The notes beneath the pieces are model-generated. The model saw only the letters and a list, made by a program, of their open reading frames with translations. It had not been told where the DNA came from and did no database searches. Position numbers and translations under genes: made by a program. Positions 8,910-27,010 of a stretch of DNA of 64,000 nucleotides are shown piece after piece. Source of the stretch: Ctena decussata (taxonomy: Eukaryota > Mollusca > Bivalvia > Lucinida > Lucinidae); assembly GCA_963989385.1 (NCBI GenBank), contig OZ022500.1:107735842-107799841 (forward strand), in the 5' to 3' direction. Every line of letters begins with the position of its first letter. Position 1 is the first letter of the stretch.

Positions 8910-10482
8910 ATCATGTCCAATATTTCTTTTGATGTTGCAACCGTGGTGAAGATAGGTACCGTGATGATTTATCTAGAATTGTTCGGCTTCTTTTCAGCAA
9001 TTATTCTGACAAACTAACGCTGAAGAAGAATGATTCATGACTATCTCCCACTAAGATTTGGTCTGTATCTGCATAAAACTTTTGTATGATGTCGCTGGAA
9101 AGCATTTTTATGATTATATCGTATAAATAATCAAGTATTCGTATGTGTATGTTAATAGGTCAGCATAAATCTGAATTCGTCAGGCTACATGGCATTAAAT
9201 GGCAAGAGGACTATCGACTCTAAAAAACTAGTTCTTTCAATATGTAGCTACAAGACTGGAATAATTGTGGAAATGTTGACTTTGTATTAAAGCATAAATA
9301 CCAGCATTGCATGGGTAGCTATTTGCATGAATCTGAAATAGAAAAGTTATACTTCAGTACAACTAAATGATACGACAAGAAAACTAAGCTTATAAAAACT
9401 CCGAATGAAGATGCCAACAGTCAGAGTTCTCAGCCTTCAAAGGTAAAGTTAAACAAAGACGATAAATCATTACAGTACGTACAACGTACAGAGATACCGA
9501 CAAACAAAATATATTCATGAAACACTATGCCCCCAACCGCATGCTTGCCTCTAAAGAAGGTTCATCCCATAATGTATAAGTCAGAAAGTGGTATAACTCA
9601 ACCAAGCATTAAGAAAATTGGCTAAAAAGGTCATATACACTTTGGCCTGTGACTGTATGCTAAATACAAAAATCATGGCCTAAGGGGTTCTTCAGATATT
9701 TTGTTCACAAAAGTAAATAGGAAAATTCTCAGGAACTGGCGCAATTCAATCCCAGATCCCATCTGGCATTAATCGTCCATATTTTAATTGAAAGACGGTA
9801 TTTACAAAAAATAAGAATCATCTGGGCTTCTTCCACCCATTGGTTTATTTGATATGTTGTGTAGTTAATAGCTTCTAGTCTTTTGGAATCACGCAGTCCA
9901 GTTAGAGAAGTTCTAAAATACACTAATACTACGATTCGGCGCAAGAAGACAGGAGCAGCACTGGGGTGTTAGCGACTGTGTCAGTTCCTGTTCGTCGCCT
10001 CACTGCTGAAAATATTTAAAGGAGCAGCTGATATTTTCCCATAGACATTACGACAACATATACCCAGTTCCACGGCCCATGAATTCGATCGCCAAAGGTC
10101 AAGAATTTCTAATTCCTTTGCAGCTGTTGTAAGAACGATCGAAGTTTAAGGCAACAAGAATTTCAATACAACTGATACCCTGATCATTTCCATGGAACAA
10201 ATTTTGCATTTTTTTATTTTTCTGAAACTGAGGCATTTTTCTCGAAGTCTATAAAATCTCAGAAACTAGAGTTCAAAGTGACCCTTTCAAACAGGTCACC
10301 TTGTTAGACATTCAGCTTCATAGGCAAAATGATCGTGTTGATTTGGGTTGTAATTTCCCTGTTCTGAAAAAATGCAATTTTTAATCAAAATTTCATTTGT
10401 ACAAAAATCAGTCCATGAACATGGGCAGGGCATATATTGGTTCAAAACTTGTGCTGTCAGTAATCTCGACCCTCTTTAAAAC
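8910..10482. other. No gene recognised
   Basis: AT-rich. The stretch 9727-9770 faintly resembles the outer end of the Naiad tail in reverse, but too weakly to call. Confidence 0.35.
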
Positions 10483-10725
10483 ATGGCAAAATTGGAATTT
10501 CCGTGTCTTTGTCGAGCGAAAGTAAATGGCCCTCAAAGTGAGGATGCGTTGCAATGTCCTCTATGGAAATATATTTGGCGTTCCTTTAACTATTTTGAGC
10601 AGTGTATTAACAATCACGAATGGACTTTAAGGTATTTCGATTTCAATGTTTATCATTATTGCTATTATAATTGTCATGTTTTAGGGAAGGGTGTGGTTAG
10701 TGTTTGTAAATATTCTATCTATTAA
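10483..10725 (+). pseudogene. Possible N-terminal remnant of the Naiad ORF
   Basis: An 80-codon open stretch directly upstream of the Naiad nuclease domain. It is Cys-, Tyr- and His-rich (CLC near the start, CPLWKYIW, YHYCYYNCHV) and ends in TAA. The reading shifts relative to the nuclease frame, which begins about 70 bp further on. It may be the degraded start of the element's protein or unrelated sequence; I do not recognise the domain. Confidence 0.35.
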
Positions 10726-11659
10726 GCATCTTTTCAACTTATTCCTTTGAAGGAGACTGATACTGATATACGTTTTAACCTGAAAAACACAAAATTGCAA
10801 CATGCAATATGTTGGACAAACTAGTCGTGCCCTTAAGAAACGATTTGGTGAACATTATCGTAGAATTAAAAATCCTAAAAAAATTGATACTTTTCTTTAT
10901 CAACATTTTAAACGTACAGGCCATTCTCCTGCTGACGTATCTATACAGCCAGCAGAGAAAATAATTTATGACACTAAATCATCCTCGCGTTTCCAAAATA
11001 TAAAGAGACACGAGGTTGAATTAAAATGGATAAAATTGTTACAAACTGCATTTCCATTAGGGTTTAATGACAACATTTATCAAGAAGGTAACATTTCGAA
11101 AATGCCTAATTTTGATGTATTTTCTCTTTTTGATATTCCAAAACGCAAGCATAGAAGTCATGGTTTAAGAAAAAATGGTAACATAAAACGAAAAAATACT
11201 GCTGTTAAGAAAACCAATACTTCCCTTAAAATTTTGTCGGAAATACTAAAAAACCAAGGTCGACATTCTATGCTCTCATTTTTATGTTCTCTTCCGGTTT
11301 CTGTTAAATGCATTTTAGATAATGAGGCTAATAAGTTCTACGATAAGGGTCATCAACTGTACGTGGCCGCACTCCTGACAAGATGTTATACTCAACATGC
11401 TCTTCGTCCACTAATCGAATCTGAGATCAACCATAAAAGACATTTTCTCAAAATTCCTTTTATAAATAAAGGAATTGATTTTATTGACCTACAAAGTATT
11501 TTTAAGGATCGGTCTGTAACTGCATCGATCCCGGATTATTTCGTGAATAAGGAGCCACCTATCATATGTTATAAATATAACAAACCAATTAGAAACACTA
11601 TATTTAACTTTAATAAACTGGTCTCAGATCTTGATGTTCATACAAATACACCCGATACA

Positions 11660-11662
11660 TGA
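11660..11662 (+). other. In-frame TGA at the CxC linker, candidate Sec codon
   Basis: The reading is open on both sides: TNTPDT before and DCTDSKFIYPAAGHVITG after. The TGA sits where the first Cys of the clade's CxC motif is expected, giving U-x-C. Cys-to-Sec replacement is known for Naiad proteins of clams. Confidence 0.7.
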
Positions 11663-12073
11663 GATTGTACAGACTCCAAATTTATCTATCCTGCCGCTGG
11701 CCATGTCATTACAGGGAATCTTAATATTATTTCAGATTCAAGAATTCGTAACATTATTTCGAAGGGACCAAAATATAGATTTCCTAACCGTATTGATTTC
11801 AAAAAATGTAGGGAAGATATAGCCTGTTCTTTAACTGATTTTGGTAATCGATGGTGCAAGCGGGAACATGTTGAGTCTGATGCCTTAAAGGAATGGAAGG
11901 TGAACATTTTTAATGTAATGGATAAACGTATTAAGTTCTATTCCCAAAACACAAATCTTTTGCCGCCTAAACCTAAATCAACATTTCGTCACCTGAAGTT
12001 GGGTATCCAGCAGTTTCATAGTAAGAACGTTCTGGTTCCAGCAGACAAGGCTGCAAATAACGTTGTCGTTGTT

Positions 12074-12076
12074 TGA
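12074..12076 (+). other. In-frame TGA in the RT N-terminal region, candidate Sec codon
   Basis: It is exactly 138 codons after the TGA at 11660, in the same frame, between ADKAANNVVVV and RLHYINTLKQEL. The coding quality does not change across it. The residue normally here could be Cys or Trp; I cannot tell without an alignment. Confidence 0.55.
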
Positions 12077-13531
12077 CGGTTACACTATATTAACACATTG
12101 AAACAAGAACTTCGCGGCACTAAGGCCTATGAAGAGACTCAGAAGACGAAAAGTCTGTTGTCTTTAGGCACTGTAATGATATAGCCCTCAGGTTTTCTGT
12201 AAATGAAGAGGAACGGCAGGACAAGCTTCCTACGATGTACTGGTTTCCTTAACTTCATAAACGACCATATAAAGCCAGGTTTATTGCTAATTCTAGTGCT
12301 TGTACCACTACTGAACTTTCCAAATTATTAACTTCTTGCCTTACCGCTATCAAAATTCATGTAATTAGGTACTGTGAAAAAGTTTACGTACGGTCAGGAA
12401 AAAATTTGTTTTGGTCAATTAAAAATTCTACCGAGGTTCATGATAAGCTGAAGTCTAGAGGATATCGCGCGTCTAGTTTGTCTACATACGATTTTTCTAC
12501 ACTCTGTACAACTTTGCCCCATAATTTAATAAAAAAGAAACTAATAAATTTAATTGAGACTACTTTTCAGAGAGAGGGTGCTCTTTATCTTGCTTGCAAT
12601 GATAAACATGCTTTTTTTTACTTCCGATGACCAAAAAAGGTTTAAAATGTGGTCTTGCCAAAATGTTTGTGATGCTTTAGTATATCTTCTAGATAACATT
12701 TTCATCAGATTCGGTACTAAGTTACACAGACAAATTAAAGGAATTCCGATGGGTACTAATTGCGCTCCTCTTGTAGCAGATTTGTTTCTATTTTGCTATG
12801 AAAGAGACTTTATGATGTCTCTTTTTGATGATTCTCAATCTCATGTCATTGAAACATTCAACTCAACGTCTAGATACTGGGACGACCTTTTAAATATTGA
12901 CAACCCTTATTTTGAAGAAATGGTTTATCAAATTTATCTTGCTGAATTGCAGTTAAATAAAGCAAATACTTCTGATACCGAGGCCCCATTTTTGGATTTA
13001 CATTTATCTATTTTAGATGGATTTGTTTCATCTAAAATTTATGACAAACGCGATGATTTTGATTTGGACATTGTTAATTTTCCGTTTTTGGATGGTGATG
13101 TTCCCCGCACCACTTCTTATGGTGTTTACATTTCTCAGCTTATTCGCTTCGCTAGGGTGTCTAGTCATCTGGCTGACTTCAATGCTCGTAATAAAAGTTT
13201 GACTGCCAAGCTTTTACAGCAGGGGTATCGGTATCATAAACTTCGGAAAGCTTTTTCTAAATTTTATCGTAGACACTTTGAATTGGTTTCTAAATATAAT
13301 ATAGGGTTAAGGTCATTTTTGCAACAAGGCCTATCGGAACCTGAATTTTATGGTGACTTAGTATATAAATTACGCAAAATCGTAGGGAAAACAGAATTTC
13401 CCGATCAATTTAAGAAAATTATCATACGATTTAAACGCATTGGCTATAACATAGATGTAATGCGACAGTCTGCATGCTTAGTGGTTAACCCAATCACGGT
13501 TGACAACTTTGCTGTCCTCTTTAATTGCTCG

Positions 13532-13627
13532 CCGGTGGGTCGGGGTTCAGACTCTATGATAGCCCCTACATAAAGTTATATATTAGTTGGTTGGGGCCGG
13601 ATGTTTGTCTGTTTCTTGGCCCACCGG
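13532..13627 (+). promoter_or_regulatory. Candidate SECIS element overlapping the Naiad stop codon
   Basis: Helix I: CCGGTGGG (13532-13539) pairs with CCCACCGG (13620-13627), and CAGAC (13548-13552) with GTCTG (13607-13611). The 8-nt strands between them also pair mostly (G-C and G-U), giving about 20 bp. Quartet: ATGA (13556-13559) faces GGAT (13599-13602), giving U.U, G.A, A.G and a fourth non-canonical pair. Helix II: GCCCC (13562-13566) pairs with GGGGC (13593-13597), extended by AC/GT. The AA at 13572-13573, 12 nt after ATGA, falls in the apical loop and is also the AA of the TAA stop codon. This matches eukaryotic SECIS rules. No folding program was run. Confidence 0.72.
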
Positions 13628-14272
13628 GGTTCAACTGGTGGTCTTCTTTTGCTCCAGTACTCCAGTGGTGTTGCTGACGCCCCAGGGATCTCCGGGTGTC
13701 TCAACACGTTTTGGCTGTCGAGTCCTCATCCTTGCTTCATCACGGTCTTTTCTTGATCTTAATTGTTGACCATCATGACTCTCTGGTGAGTTAGGGGACC
13801 TCCATACGAATCGAACTACCAACTAATTGTGTGCACCGCAGCGGAGGGTGAGGGTGAAGGTTTGGGCCCAGTAAAACCGGTTTAAACCCCCCAGTAGTTA
13901 TTACTGACCGTCCCAAGGCGGTACTTTTGTTGCGGTTGCATTTGTTTTATGTTCGGTGCTGTTTAATTTATTGTGTTCTCAGTTTAATCCTTCTATCATA
14001 AAAATAGAAAATAGGTAAAAATAATTGTTAAATGTTTTTCATATAATCTGCTTAGTCCGTTGTAACCCGTCTGTTGGTCTAAATTATTTAGTTCAATAAA
14101 GATAGCTGAGTTGCCATCTATTTGGGAAAGAGCTGCTGACTCGGCTTATCACTTGTAATTTATTGTTTGTTGGGATGTCTTTGTCAATCTTTCCCTTTGA
14201 TGTTGGGGATGGGGTTTGGGGTCTGATTCAGTCAGTTCCTGAAGTGTAGTTCTCTTTAAAATTGTCATACTA
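13574..14272 (+). mobile_element. Naiad 3' UTR and terminal (pseudo-LTR-like) tail
   Basis: Non-coding sequence from the stop codon to the shared outer end CAGTCAGTTCCTGAAGTGTAG. The outer ~330 bp recurs inverted at 5962-6294. The block GACCGTCCCAAGGCGGTAC with a CCCCCC run and GTAAAACCGGTTT (about 13875-13925) recurs in diverged copies near 36340, 36650 and 58240. Short outer-end fragments lie at 23815 and 41343. This spread defines the tail as part of the mobile unit. Confidence 0.85.
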
Positions 14273-16183
14273 AATTATTTTACAATGACCATTCGGACAT
14301 TACAGTTGAGTTTGAAAGTCATAGTTGAAAAACAAGGTAAGGGGATACTGTAACTAGCTAGTAAAATAATTTGCTTGCAGTGCATAACGATTTCAGAACT
14401 CCTTGTCTTTAGCTGACAGCAAAAACCTGAAATGCAAGAAAATCTTGAAATTAAATGAAAACCTTGAAATTAGATGAAACTCATAAAAGTGTCTGCAAAA
14501 GTTCATTCATGCGTTATTTGTTGCAAATTGGCTTTATCTGGTCGATATTTATTAATTTGTCGAAGGTGACCTTTGCCTGATGAAGCTTGTTTAGTGTGCT
14601 TGACGCTGGAAGGGATACCTACCAAATATGTCCATATTTAATCTGCAGATACTGGTGCAAAATCGGACAGGACTTTGGCGATAAGTTGACTCAAGCAAAA
14701 TGCGTCTGCTAGTTTCGTTTGTTTGGTCTGTTCCGGGCTAGTAGAATCTAACTGTTTCAGCACTGCCAAAGGACTGAATTGTTCAGGATCTATTTCATTT
14801 GTCACTATATGATTATCGTCATTAATAAATATTAGGATTACTTAAACGATTCAAATTATTCTGAAAATCTGAATTTGCTGAAGCCATTGTCTGCCCGGGA
14901 AGTCCAACAGTGCAAATTTAGTTAGAAAACAGCTTCTTCCATGAAGACTTATGACTGCTACAATTCAAATTTGCAGAACTAAGCTAAAGGGATAATTCGG
15001 GATAATTCCCGCTGTAAGTTACAACAGTAGGGAAACGCCAAACGCAATCTCCCTTTATGATAGCAATATTTTAAGGAATCTCAAAAAGCACAAAATAAAT
15101 AAATAAATAAGTAAAAAATAAATAAATAAGTGAGTCGAAAAGTTAGATATTTCCAAGAAAGGGACACACCAAGAGAGGCGGAAGTAGCAGACTCGGTTCG
15201 AACAAGTCTATTCATGAGAAACAGTTAAATGTGCAACACTGGTTACGCCCTCTAGACCGAGTCCAGCGGATTTTTTCGAATTAACTCTGAATGCACTTGG
15301 TAATGCCAAAGAATCAATCATTATTTATTTTATTATAATAAGGTACGGGGAGATTTATTTGGGCCGTCAAACAGCACTTTCACCAGCTCTAATAAAGACA
15401 AAATGAGTTCTGGAAAGGCCCTTCAGAAACAATAAATAACTATTTTGAGAAGTTAAAACAGGGAGAAGGCATACAGAGAAAGCTGTTGGGCCGTTTTCAA
15501 CATTGATGTAAAATATATCTAAGTTTATGTTGACTTAAAAAAGAAAAAAAACTACAGTTGAAAACCTCAGGCGATGAAACGAGTGCAAGGAGAACCCGAT
15601 TGAATTTTCAAGTAATTAGAAAGCCTAAGTAAAACAATGTAACAATTAATCTTCATCAGATATATTGCCCCCTAAATAAATAGAGTCTGTAAGTAGTTAC
15701 ACGTTAAAGACTGGCGATGTCTTTTTCAGATATTTAGAGCAGGATCCCAACTTTAATTTTATGTCTTATTAGCTGAGATACATGTCTTATTATGAAGCTG
15801 CACTTTGGAATTTACCTCAGCCTTATCCAATTTAAATGCTAATTTCGTTTTCTGTGAGGCTTTTTATTGGACGTATTGCTATAATTGTTATGCTTGAGCT
15901 TGAAGTTCATGTACAGGAATAATGTGATCAATATATCATAGTATTCTGTAATATTAAAGCGAGAATAAACTTTCAAATATCTGTATTTGTACTTTAACTG
16001 TTGAGGTTTTCAACAGCAGTCGTTAAGTAATTTTAAAGACACACTGAAACGTCGCCCTATGTTTCGATATAGCTGTTTTCGGGCCTTATGCAACAAAAAG
16101 GCTCATACACTTTATAAAGAAATGGGGTTTTATTGATATGTTCAGCTTTATATTAGTGTTTGACTTTGTGTTCGTTATTTAGT
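14273..16183. other. No gene recognised; small AAAT microsatellite
   Basis: AT-rich. The only clear feature is an (AAAT)n-like run at about 15090-15131. Confidence 0.4.
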
Positions 16184-24846: not shown

Positions 24847-27010
24847 TTAAAATAACACTTTGGAATTCATGCCTTTTGGAGCAACCGTACCAAGAATGTG
24901 CATTCAAGACGTTTCCTTTAACAGTCTTTTCCAATTATTTGGAATTTTTTCAATAGGCATAAACGAAAAATCGTGAATGGTATGTCCTGGAGAATTGAAA
25001 TGTTCTGAAACATTGGTAAACATATCTGGAAAATGCATAATGTCAATTTTATGACTATTCATGCGATTAGCACATTTCTGGATGGTCTGTCCAACATACT
25101 GAGCTTTACATTTCTTACATGTTATCATATATATTACATCAGTGGAAATGCATGAAAGGTTTTGCTTTATTTTATGCACACATGATGTAGTAGTACTCGT
25201 AAAGCAGTCAGACTCATGAATAGTTGAACAGTGTGAACAACGGCGTCTATCACATTTGGTTACATTGTAAGAAGCCACAGATTTACTCATTTTTGAGTGA
25301 ACTAGCATGTCATGAATATTAGCCGGTCTTTTGTAAGCAACTATTGGCTTAGATTCAAATAAGTAACGTACACTTTCACTTGCTGATATCTTAAGTAAAC
25401 CCCAATACTGGTTAATAATTTTGCCTATGTTAGGAAGAGAGGGATTGTATGTACAGACAAAGGGGATAATATCTTGACTTTCAGAAGGTTTGGATTCTAA
25501 AGCTTCATCAACAGTCAAAGTTGATGCTTTTTGAATAGCTTCAGATAAAATATCAGCAGGGTAGTTACGCATTTGAAAATAAGTTTTCAGTTTTTCTAGA
25601 CTTTGTTTGAAACAGTCATTACTAGAAGTGATGCGACGATACCGTTTAGCCTGACTAAATGGTATGCCTTTTTTACAAGACAGAGGATGACAGGATGAGA
25701 ACTTAATATACTGATGAACATTGGTGTCCTTTTCATGTACACTAGTTCTCAAGATCCCAGCATCAGATTTTTCAATTTTGACATCTAGAAAAACGGCATC
25801 CGTTTTTGAGTAACTGTATGTAAATTTTATGGTTTCGTGACACTGGTTGAGGTTCTCAAGAAATCTTAATAATTGCTCCTCACTGTCATTCCAGATCATG
25901 AAAACATCATCCAAAAATCGTAACCACAAAAAAGGTTGCAAGTCACAAGAGTCCAGAAATTCCTTCTCAAATTTTCCCATGAAAAGTGAAGCATATGAAG
26001 GGGCCATACGTGTCCCCATAGCAGTGCCTAGTTTTTGAAGGTAGTGATTTCCATTAAATTGAAAATGGTTTTTAGTTAAAACCAGCTCAATTAAATCAGA
26101 AATGCACTGGATGGACTTTTCTGGTTTGCAACCAGTTTTCATGAAATACTGACATGCTTCAATACCCTCTTTATGCGGAATGTTACTGTATAAAGAACTG
26201 ACATCCATAGTAACGAGGAAGCTATCCTTAGATAATTGAGGAAGCTGTCTTATTTTGTTTATGAAGTCAATAGTGTCTTTGATATATGAAGGTAAGGATT
26301 CCATATGTGACTTTAAAGGTAGGTTCCTGGACTAGCGATAACAATTATGTCCACAAAATAATTTCGTCTTTTTCTGAGCATTATTGAATTCTCTTATTTT
26401 TCTGAATTTGTTGCTACTGAGAAACTCGTCAGATGTTGAAGAAAATAGTCGTTTTCCCTTTTGGTTTATTTTCTTTCGTTGGAATTCCAGTTCTAAAAAT
26501 AACTATGTTTATTATGTCTATAAGTGGGCGATTTCTGATGCAATTCTCCAAAGGTCAATTTTCCCTTGCCGTGATCTCTGCTAGAGGTCCTGGCATGGCG
26601 GATGGGTTAAAAATATCCCAAAACGCAATGCAGCATGATGTCAGCCACGTTATCTATTTTGGCGCGAACTAAAAATAGCGCTAACTGGTGTGCGAAGCAG
26701 AATTAGGAAATCCCTTGCAAAACAACTTTTCTAATATTTTTTTTATTTACACTTTTTAGTGAAACTTATTCATTCCCTTTTATAAGTGCTTTCCAACAAC
26801 TTGGATGAACAATCATCAAAATTATGATGCATTCCAAAGTACAGGAACCTACCTTTAAGGTGCTATCAATAAAAGCAGACACGTTCTCAGTCAAAGAACC
26901 ACAGGCTGACACGATAGGTCTACCAGGATAACCTAAAGGTAAAATAGGATCGTATGTTTTGTGTGTCTTTGGTAAGATACGGAACTTCTGAAATTTTGTT
27001 TCTACTTCTT
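24847..27010 (-). pseudogene. Canonical Penelope-like element ORF: RT then C-terminal GIY-YIG
   Basis: Standard PLE order on the minus strand. N-terminal part (27000-26859): ILPKTHK and GYPGRPIVSACGSLTENVSA. After the MITE insertion the RT continues with VTMDVSSLYSNIPH (motif A), GTAMGTRMAPSYASLFMGKF (motif B) and RFLDDVFMIW (motif C). Then come FLDVKIEKSD, a Cys-rich linker (KCDRRRCSHCS) and GIY-YIG motifs VIYMITCKKC, QYVGQT and HFNSPGHT. The catalytic-Glu helix reads KRLLKETS-TGA-MHILGTVAPKGMN, so a TGA at 24904-24906 replaces a Trp; the frame then runs on to TAA at 24847. Frameshifts are also seen upstream of about 27000. The element is inactive because of the MITE and the nonsense codon. 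Confidence 0.9.
26317..26854. mobile_element. MITE with TTAA target duplication inside the PLE ORF
   Basis: Terminal inverted repeats AGGTAGGTTCCTG and CAGGAACCTACCT. TTAA flanks both sides (26313-26316 and 26855-26858). Removing 538 bp plus one TTAA restores the PLE reading frame through FIDSTLKSHMESLPSYIKD, which fixes the boundaries to the base. TTAA duplications are typical of piggyBac-type transposition; the ends themselves do not resemble canonical piggyBac ends. Confidence 0.92.

Follow-up and report, generated by a model that had tools for sequence, protein, structure and literature searches.

A dead Penelope-like element of Ctena decussata whose active ancestor probably read three UGA codons as selenocysteine

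We describe a dead copy of a Penelope-like element with the domain order of Naiads, whose active ancestor probably (we put this at a little over nine chances in ten) read three in-frame UGA codons as selenocysteine (Sec) under a SECIS element at the end of its open reading frame (ORF). The copy lies in a 64,000-nt stretch of the genome of the bivalve Ctena decussata (C3:107735842–107799841 of 1.66 Gb), which we call the window. In the active ancestor, the host machinery would have decoded the three UGAs as Sec, directed by the SECIS; Sec would actually have been inserted, and in the nuclease, the CxC linker, and the reverse transcriptase (RT) these residues would have functionally replaced Cys. 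The family would then offer, in many copies, a clear example of a seemingly selenium-dependent mobile element, with three Sec codons preserved across the 40 copies compared. It allows one to ask what makes an element replace conserved Cys by Sec and whether its transposition tracks the supply of selenium.

A first-pass annotation of the window had placed a retroelement at 10735..13627. The element is there, but these limits were too narrow: A blastn comparison of window positions 9000–16000 with 20 copies from the same genome extended it from 10755 to ∼14263 (Table 1). The window copy is truncated at its 5′ end, with 16 of the 20 compared copies reaching further 5′. As a coding reference we used L009, a family copy whose 955-codon frame is interrupted by three TGAs only and by no TAA or TAG; codons are numbered accordingly. 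Aligned to the L009 ORF by tblastn, the frame of the window copy is broken near 12140 and 12615; moreover, a TAA stands at 12250, at a Lys position of L009, and YWDD has replaced the YLDD of the L009 RT box. The window copy is therefore dead. Pieces of the 3′ end were also found upstream of the ORF in four of the 20 copies (L014, L017, L024, and L025), as expected of pseudo-LTRs. Elsewhere in the window, a stretch on the minus strand (24856–25158) matches the nuclease region of the L009 ORF at 35% and is perhaps another Penelope-like remnant.

Table 1. Features of the element copy in the window (positions are those of the window)
Feature	Position	Strand	Basis
Whole element copy, 5′-truncated, decayed	10755..14263	+	blastn against 20 copies
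GIY-YIG endonuclease region remnant (LIY...QYVG), end approximate	10766..11080	+	Alignment with P0140, P0146, and P0154
In-frame TGA 1, codon 23 of L009, predicted Sec	10781..10783	+	Comparison of copies and relatives
In-frame TGA 2, codon 316, predicted Sec, first position of the CxC motif (U-D-C)	11660..11662	+	Comparison of copies and relatives
In-frame TGA 3, codon 454, predicted Sec, DKAANNVVVV-U	12074..12076	+	Copies, relatives, and genome-wide pattern
Reverse transcriptase region, broken	12139..13570	+	L009 ORF vs. window (tblastn)
SECIS with extended basal stem; core 13548–13611	13532..13627	+	Rfam SECIS_1, fold
Terminal TAA in the SECIS apical loop	13571..13573	+	Copy columns, SECIS alignment
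3′ UTR / pseudo-LTR part	13574..14263	+	Pieces also upstream of the ORF in 4/20 copies

The family is present in high copy number. A DNA search of the genome with positions 10735–13627 returned at least 47 matches, drawn from the best 40 of 4970 first-look candidates, and we compared 40 copies, namely, 39 other loci (in batches of 20 and 19) and the window copy. All three TGAs were near-fixed. Among copies having the full codon, TGA was found at codon 23 in 26 out of 27 (the exception being TGG), at codon 316 in 36 out of 37 (exception TAA), and at codon 454 in 37 out of 38 (exception TGG), and the terminal TAA was kept in all 33 copies with that column. Every other in-frame stop column (15 TGA, 37 TAA, and 17 TAG columns) was occupied in at most two of the 40 copies, which excludes a chance origin of the three TGAs and agrees with the expectation that other stops would not recur. 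The first-pass annotation had seen two TGAs in an otherwise open frame; those at 11660 and 12074 do share one frame, and the third, at 10781, had been overlooked. The alternation of TGA with TGT or TGC that it had envisaged between family copies did not appear in any of the 40, the exceptions being two TGG and one TAA, and Cys states are those of other families. A degenerate pattern carrying TGA at site 454 gave 252 matches genome-wide (none for the control), and the eight of these that were displayed include two clearly distinct forms.

We tallied the residues opposite the TGA sites over 236 proteins from two protein searches, excluding P0001. Cys stood opposite codon 23 in 49 of the 50 relatives covering the site (Trp in one), opposite codon 316 in 89 out of 95 (Trp in six), and opposite codon 454 in 109 out of 121 (Trp in 10, Ile in one, and a gap in one). 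Among the 140 relatives with at least 55% identity, none covered site 23, several began right after site 316 or 454, and the sole Cys displayed at site 316 (in P0141) appears misaligned. In two proteins, P0123 and P0128, Trp was found opposite a non-Trp residue at sites 316 and 454 only. We infer that the families with Trp or late starts may themselves carry TGA, translated with table 4 by the gene caller. Cys is found at 454 in other close relatives, and families may therefore vary at this site. Contigs binned as Candidatus Thiodiazotropha and a Pinctada protein are among the relatives, a hint of a bivalve host. Searches of viral_contigs with either of two queries returned zero relatives; genome_contigs yielded four loci, two of them with long matches to the L009 ORF (L029 and L030), and scans of all four for SECIS and twister were negative up to E 10.

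The Trp residues at sites 316 and 454 would be expected if TGA were read through in some other way, by a near-cognate tRNA or under a nonstandard code that reads it as Trp. We regard this as extremely unlikely: Distant relatives mostly have Cys, the Trp pattern in P0123 and P0128 resembles what table 4 of a gene caller would presumably produce, and the SECIS match described below favors Sec.

The SECIS-like fold that the first-pass annotation had reported at the 3′ end was confirmed, with a minimum free energy of −43 kcal/mol, a z-score of −4.45, and none of 200 shuffles equaling it. The Rfam model SECIS_1 (RF00031) scored 39.9 bits over the core (cut-off 35; E 1.5e-5 in 7 kb); this was the sole gathering-level Rfam match in the window, and it spanned the whole 64-position model, including the AUGA and the apical AA. 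All 10 copies scanned (L009–L018) had a SECIS_1 match of 31.3–43.6 bits, seven at or above the cut-off and three below. Among the 33 copies with the AUGA column, 29 read ATGA, two GTGA, one TTGA, and one ATAA, and the apical ATAAAG was kept in 33 out of 33 copies with its column. The AUGA is lost in individual copies such as L013 (ATAA) and L009 (TTGA), as expected from decay. Near-fixed TGA, conserved Cys in relatives, and a scored SECIS together support the earlier proposal that the TGAs at 11660 and 12074 were ancestral Sec codons.

The ORF ends inside the SECIS. The AUGA encodes the Met of the C-terminal DSM(I/M)APT, the stop codon UAA lies in the apical loop, and only the 5′ part of the SECIS is coding. 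An S-M-(M/I/T/L/V)-x-x-T end was found in 89 of the 119 relatives with at least 55% identity that reach codon 930 or beyond, being absent in 30, and in none of the 96 relatives below 55% identity, a set that includes alignments possibly short of the C terminus. Judging from these protein ends, the overlap of SECIS and ORF end looks clade-wide. We tentatively suggest, as a possibility less probable than its opposite, that the structure of the SECIS dictates the C-terminal peptide, with the UAA supplying the apical AA; terminating ribosomes would then cover half of the SECIS, and termination could be coupled to Sec recoding, possibly limiting output. A SECIS placed over a stop codon would make a natural test of termination and Sec recoding sharing one RNA. 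The fowlpox virus GPX4 selenoprotein is also reported to have its SECIS inside the ORF, functional in mammalian cells (PMC6769590). The two arrangements are alike in this placement and differ in that the viral SECIS is described there as lying within the ORF, whereas here the coding sequence takes up the 5′ part and stops in the loop. Several close relatives (P0071, P0055, P0048, and others) end in ...VGR(T/A/I)SD, six residues before the L009 C terminus and ahead of the SECIS AUGA.

A second TGA-bearing family occurs in the same genome. A search with P0140, one of the relatives with Cys, gave 36 scored places, of which 34 had at least three TGAs; 29 of these 34 had three TGAs, no other stop, and frames of 991–1224 codons, evidence that consists of TGA numbers per place. 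One of the remaining two places had one TGA, and the other had none. One of the 29, L052, has a 3′ end whose DNA is clearly unlike that of the window and which carries a SECIS_1 match of 35.0 bits at the same position, over DSMMAPT-stop. In an alignment read by eye against the SECIS of the window, a basal G-C pair has become A-U and a further pair is missing. At the two TGA-poor places (L053 and L054), whose 3′ ends are alike through the stop and past it, the SECIS scan of these ends was negative up to E 10.

This comparison also bears on whether the hairpin might serve another step of the life cycle, such as RNA priming or packaging, and resemble a SECIS by chance. The hairpin is part of the end region of the element, and its basal stem is longer than that of the Rfam model, both of which would suit such a role. 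Against it stand the match to the whole 64-position model with its AUGA and apical AA, the survival of the hairpin in another family, where one G-C pair has become A-U, and the missing matches at TGA-poor places; we consider a different role most improbable and retain the hairpin as a putative SECIS. Farther 3′, a twister ribozyme (type P5) reading of 13846–13922 (19.1 bits; cut-off 37.6) was set aside because L052 gave no match at E values up to 10 and, in the alignment, the P2 stem is not preserved there (strand GGGT aligned with AACT).

We then asked what the variants among family copies say about the protein. Variants seen in a single copy (235 synonymous to 831 nonsynonymous, or 22% synonymous) have a neutral make-up, the neutral expectation being 21%–28% synonymous as calculated on a 21-copy set. 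Variants found in three or more copies had a ratio of 35:31 (Fisher p 1.3e-7 vs. single-copy variants). The contrast was present after codon 454 (21:14 in three or more copies vs. 137:448 in single copies, p 8.6e-6), weaker in codons 24–315 (p 0.033) and 317–453 (p 0.031), and persisted outside CpG sites (28:28 vs. 185:733, p 2.2e-6); variants in exactly two copies (28:89) were without such a contrast. Many shared variants group into subfamilies, for example L020/L023/L033/L040 and L024/L035/L046/L049, and in the subfamily copies all three sites read TGA if the codon is present, save for one TGG in L023. Because variants in three or more copies are constrained past the last TGA, selection on the active lineage seems to have reached the part of the protein that follows the third TGA.

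The region upstream of the nuclease is less straightforward. Some 480 bases upstream of codon 1 in L009 and other copies, a 5′ stretch absent from the window copy, hold ∼160 codons that are open in another frame and have a Cys-rich end. A frame change separates this stretch from the nuclease ORF family-wide, with TAG at codon 0 in 23 out of 25 copies. Of the 29 places whose only stops are three TGAs, 25 have frames open over 1041–1224 codons, so the frame change may be peculiar to the family of the window. Either an old lesion or a programmed shift may account for it.

Such a shared frame change could also mark a defective founder, and the TGAs, being common to nearly all copies, could then be nonsense mutations of that one founder, amplified in trans in a family that never made the long protein. 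Yet the three near-fixed internal stops are all TGA, with no TAA or TAG among them, and all fall at Cys positions of most relatives; a SECIS is present; the variants in three or more copies show constraint past the last TGA; and another family in the genome likewise has three TGAs and a SECIS. We therefore hold a defective founder to be very unlikely, and decoding of the three UGAs as Sec in the active ancestor remains our preferred reading.

The order of a GIY-YIG nuclease followed by an RT, seen in the first-pass annotation, was borne out through relatives that align over ∼90% of the ORF. The ORF of the L009 family itself had no Pfam match at E 0.01. P0140, P0146, P0154, and others share 38%–41% identity with it over 87%–91% of its length; an N-terminal Pfam GIY-YIG match lies above the cut-off in P0140 and P0146 and just under it in P0154 (21.9 vs. 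22.6), and a C-terminal RVT_1 match lies below the cut-off in P0146 and P0154. These Cys-type relatives thus have the same domain order and differ in having Cys at the three sites where the family of the window has TGA, as well as in their C termini, the S-M motif being absent from 96 out of 96 relatives below 55% identity. In the linker, U-D-C occupies codons 316–318, and most relatives displayed have C-x-C. In the nuclease, the comparison covered the Cys positions of the CCHH motif: The UGA at codon 23 takes the place of the first Cys, and a second Cys follows.

Naiads have an N-terminal GIY-YIG domain with a CCHH motif, a CxC linker, and a C-terminal RT with an insertion in the fingers domain, together with pseudo-LTRs or a tandem arrangement. 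Craig, Yushenova, Rodriguez, and Arkhipova reportedly described Naiads of clams and spiders in 2021 as selenoproteins with several Sec codons. From its permuted order, CxC linker, and pseudo-LTRs, we take the element to be a probable Naiad-type Penelope-like element; its domain order and predicted selenoprotein status fit those reported for clam Naiads, the likeness extending to the N-terminal GIY-YIG, the CxC linker, the C-terminal RT, and several Sec codons. Finally, we noted that residues 1024–1299 of P0140 form a ubiquitin hydrolase (UCH) domain after the RT part, and a similar UCH domain seems, by eye, to follow the RT in L030 from ∼1795.
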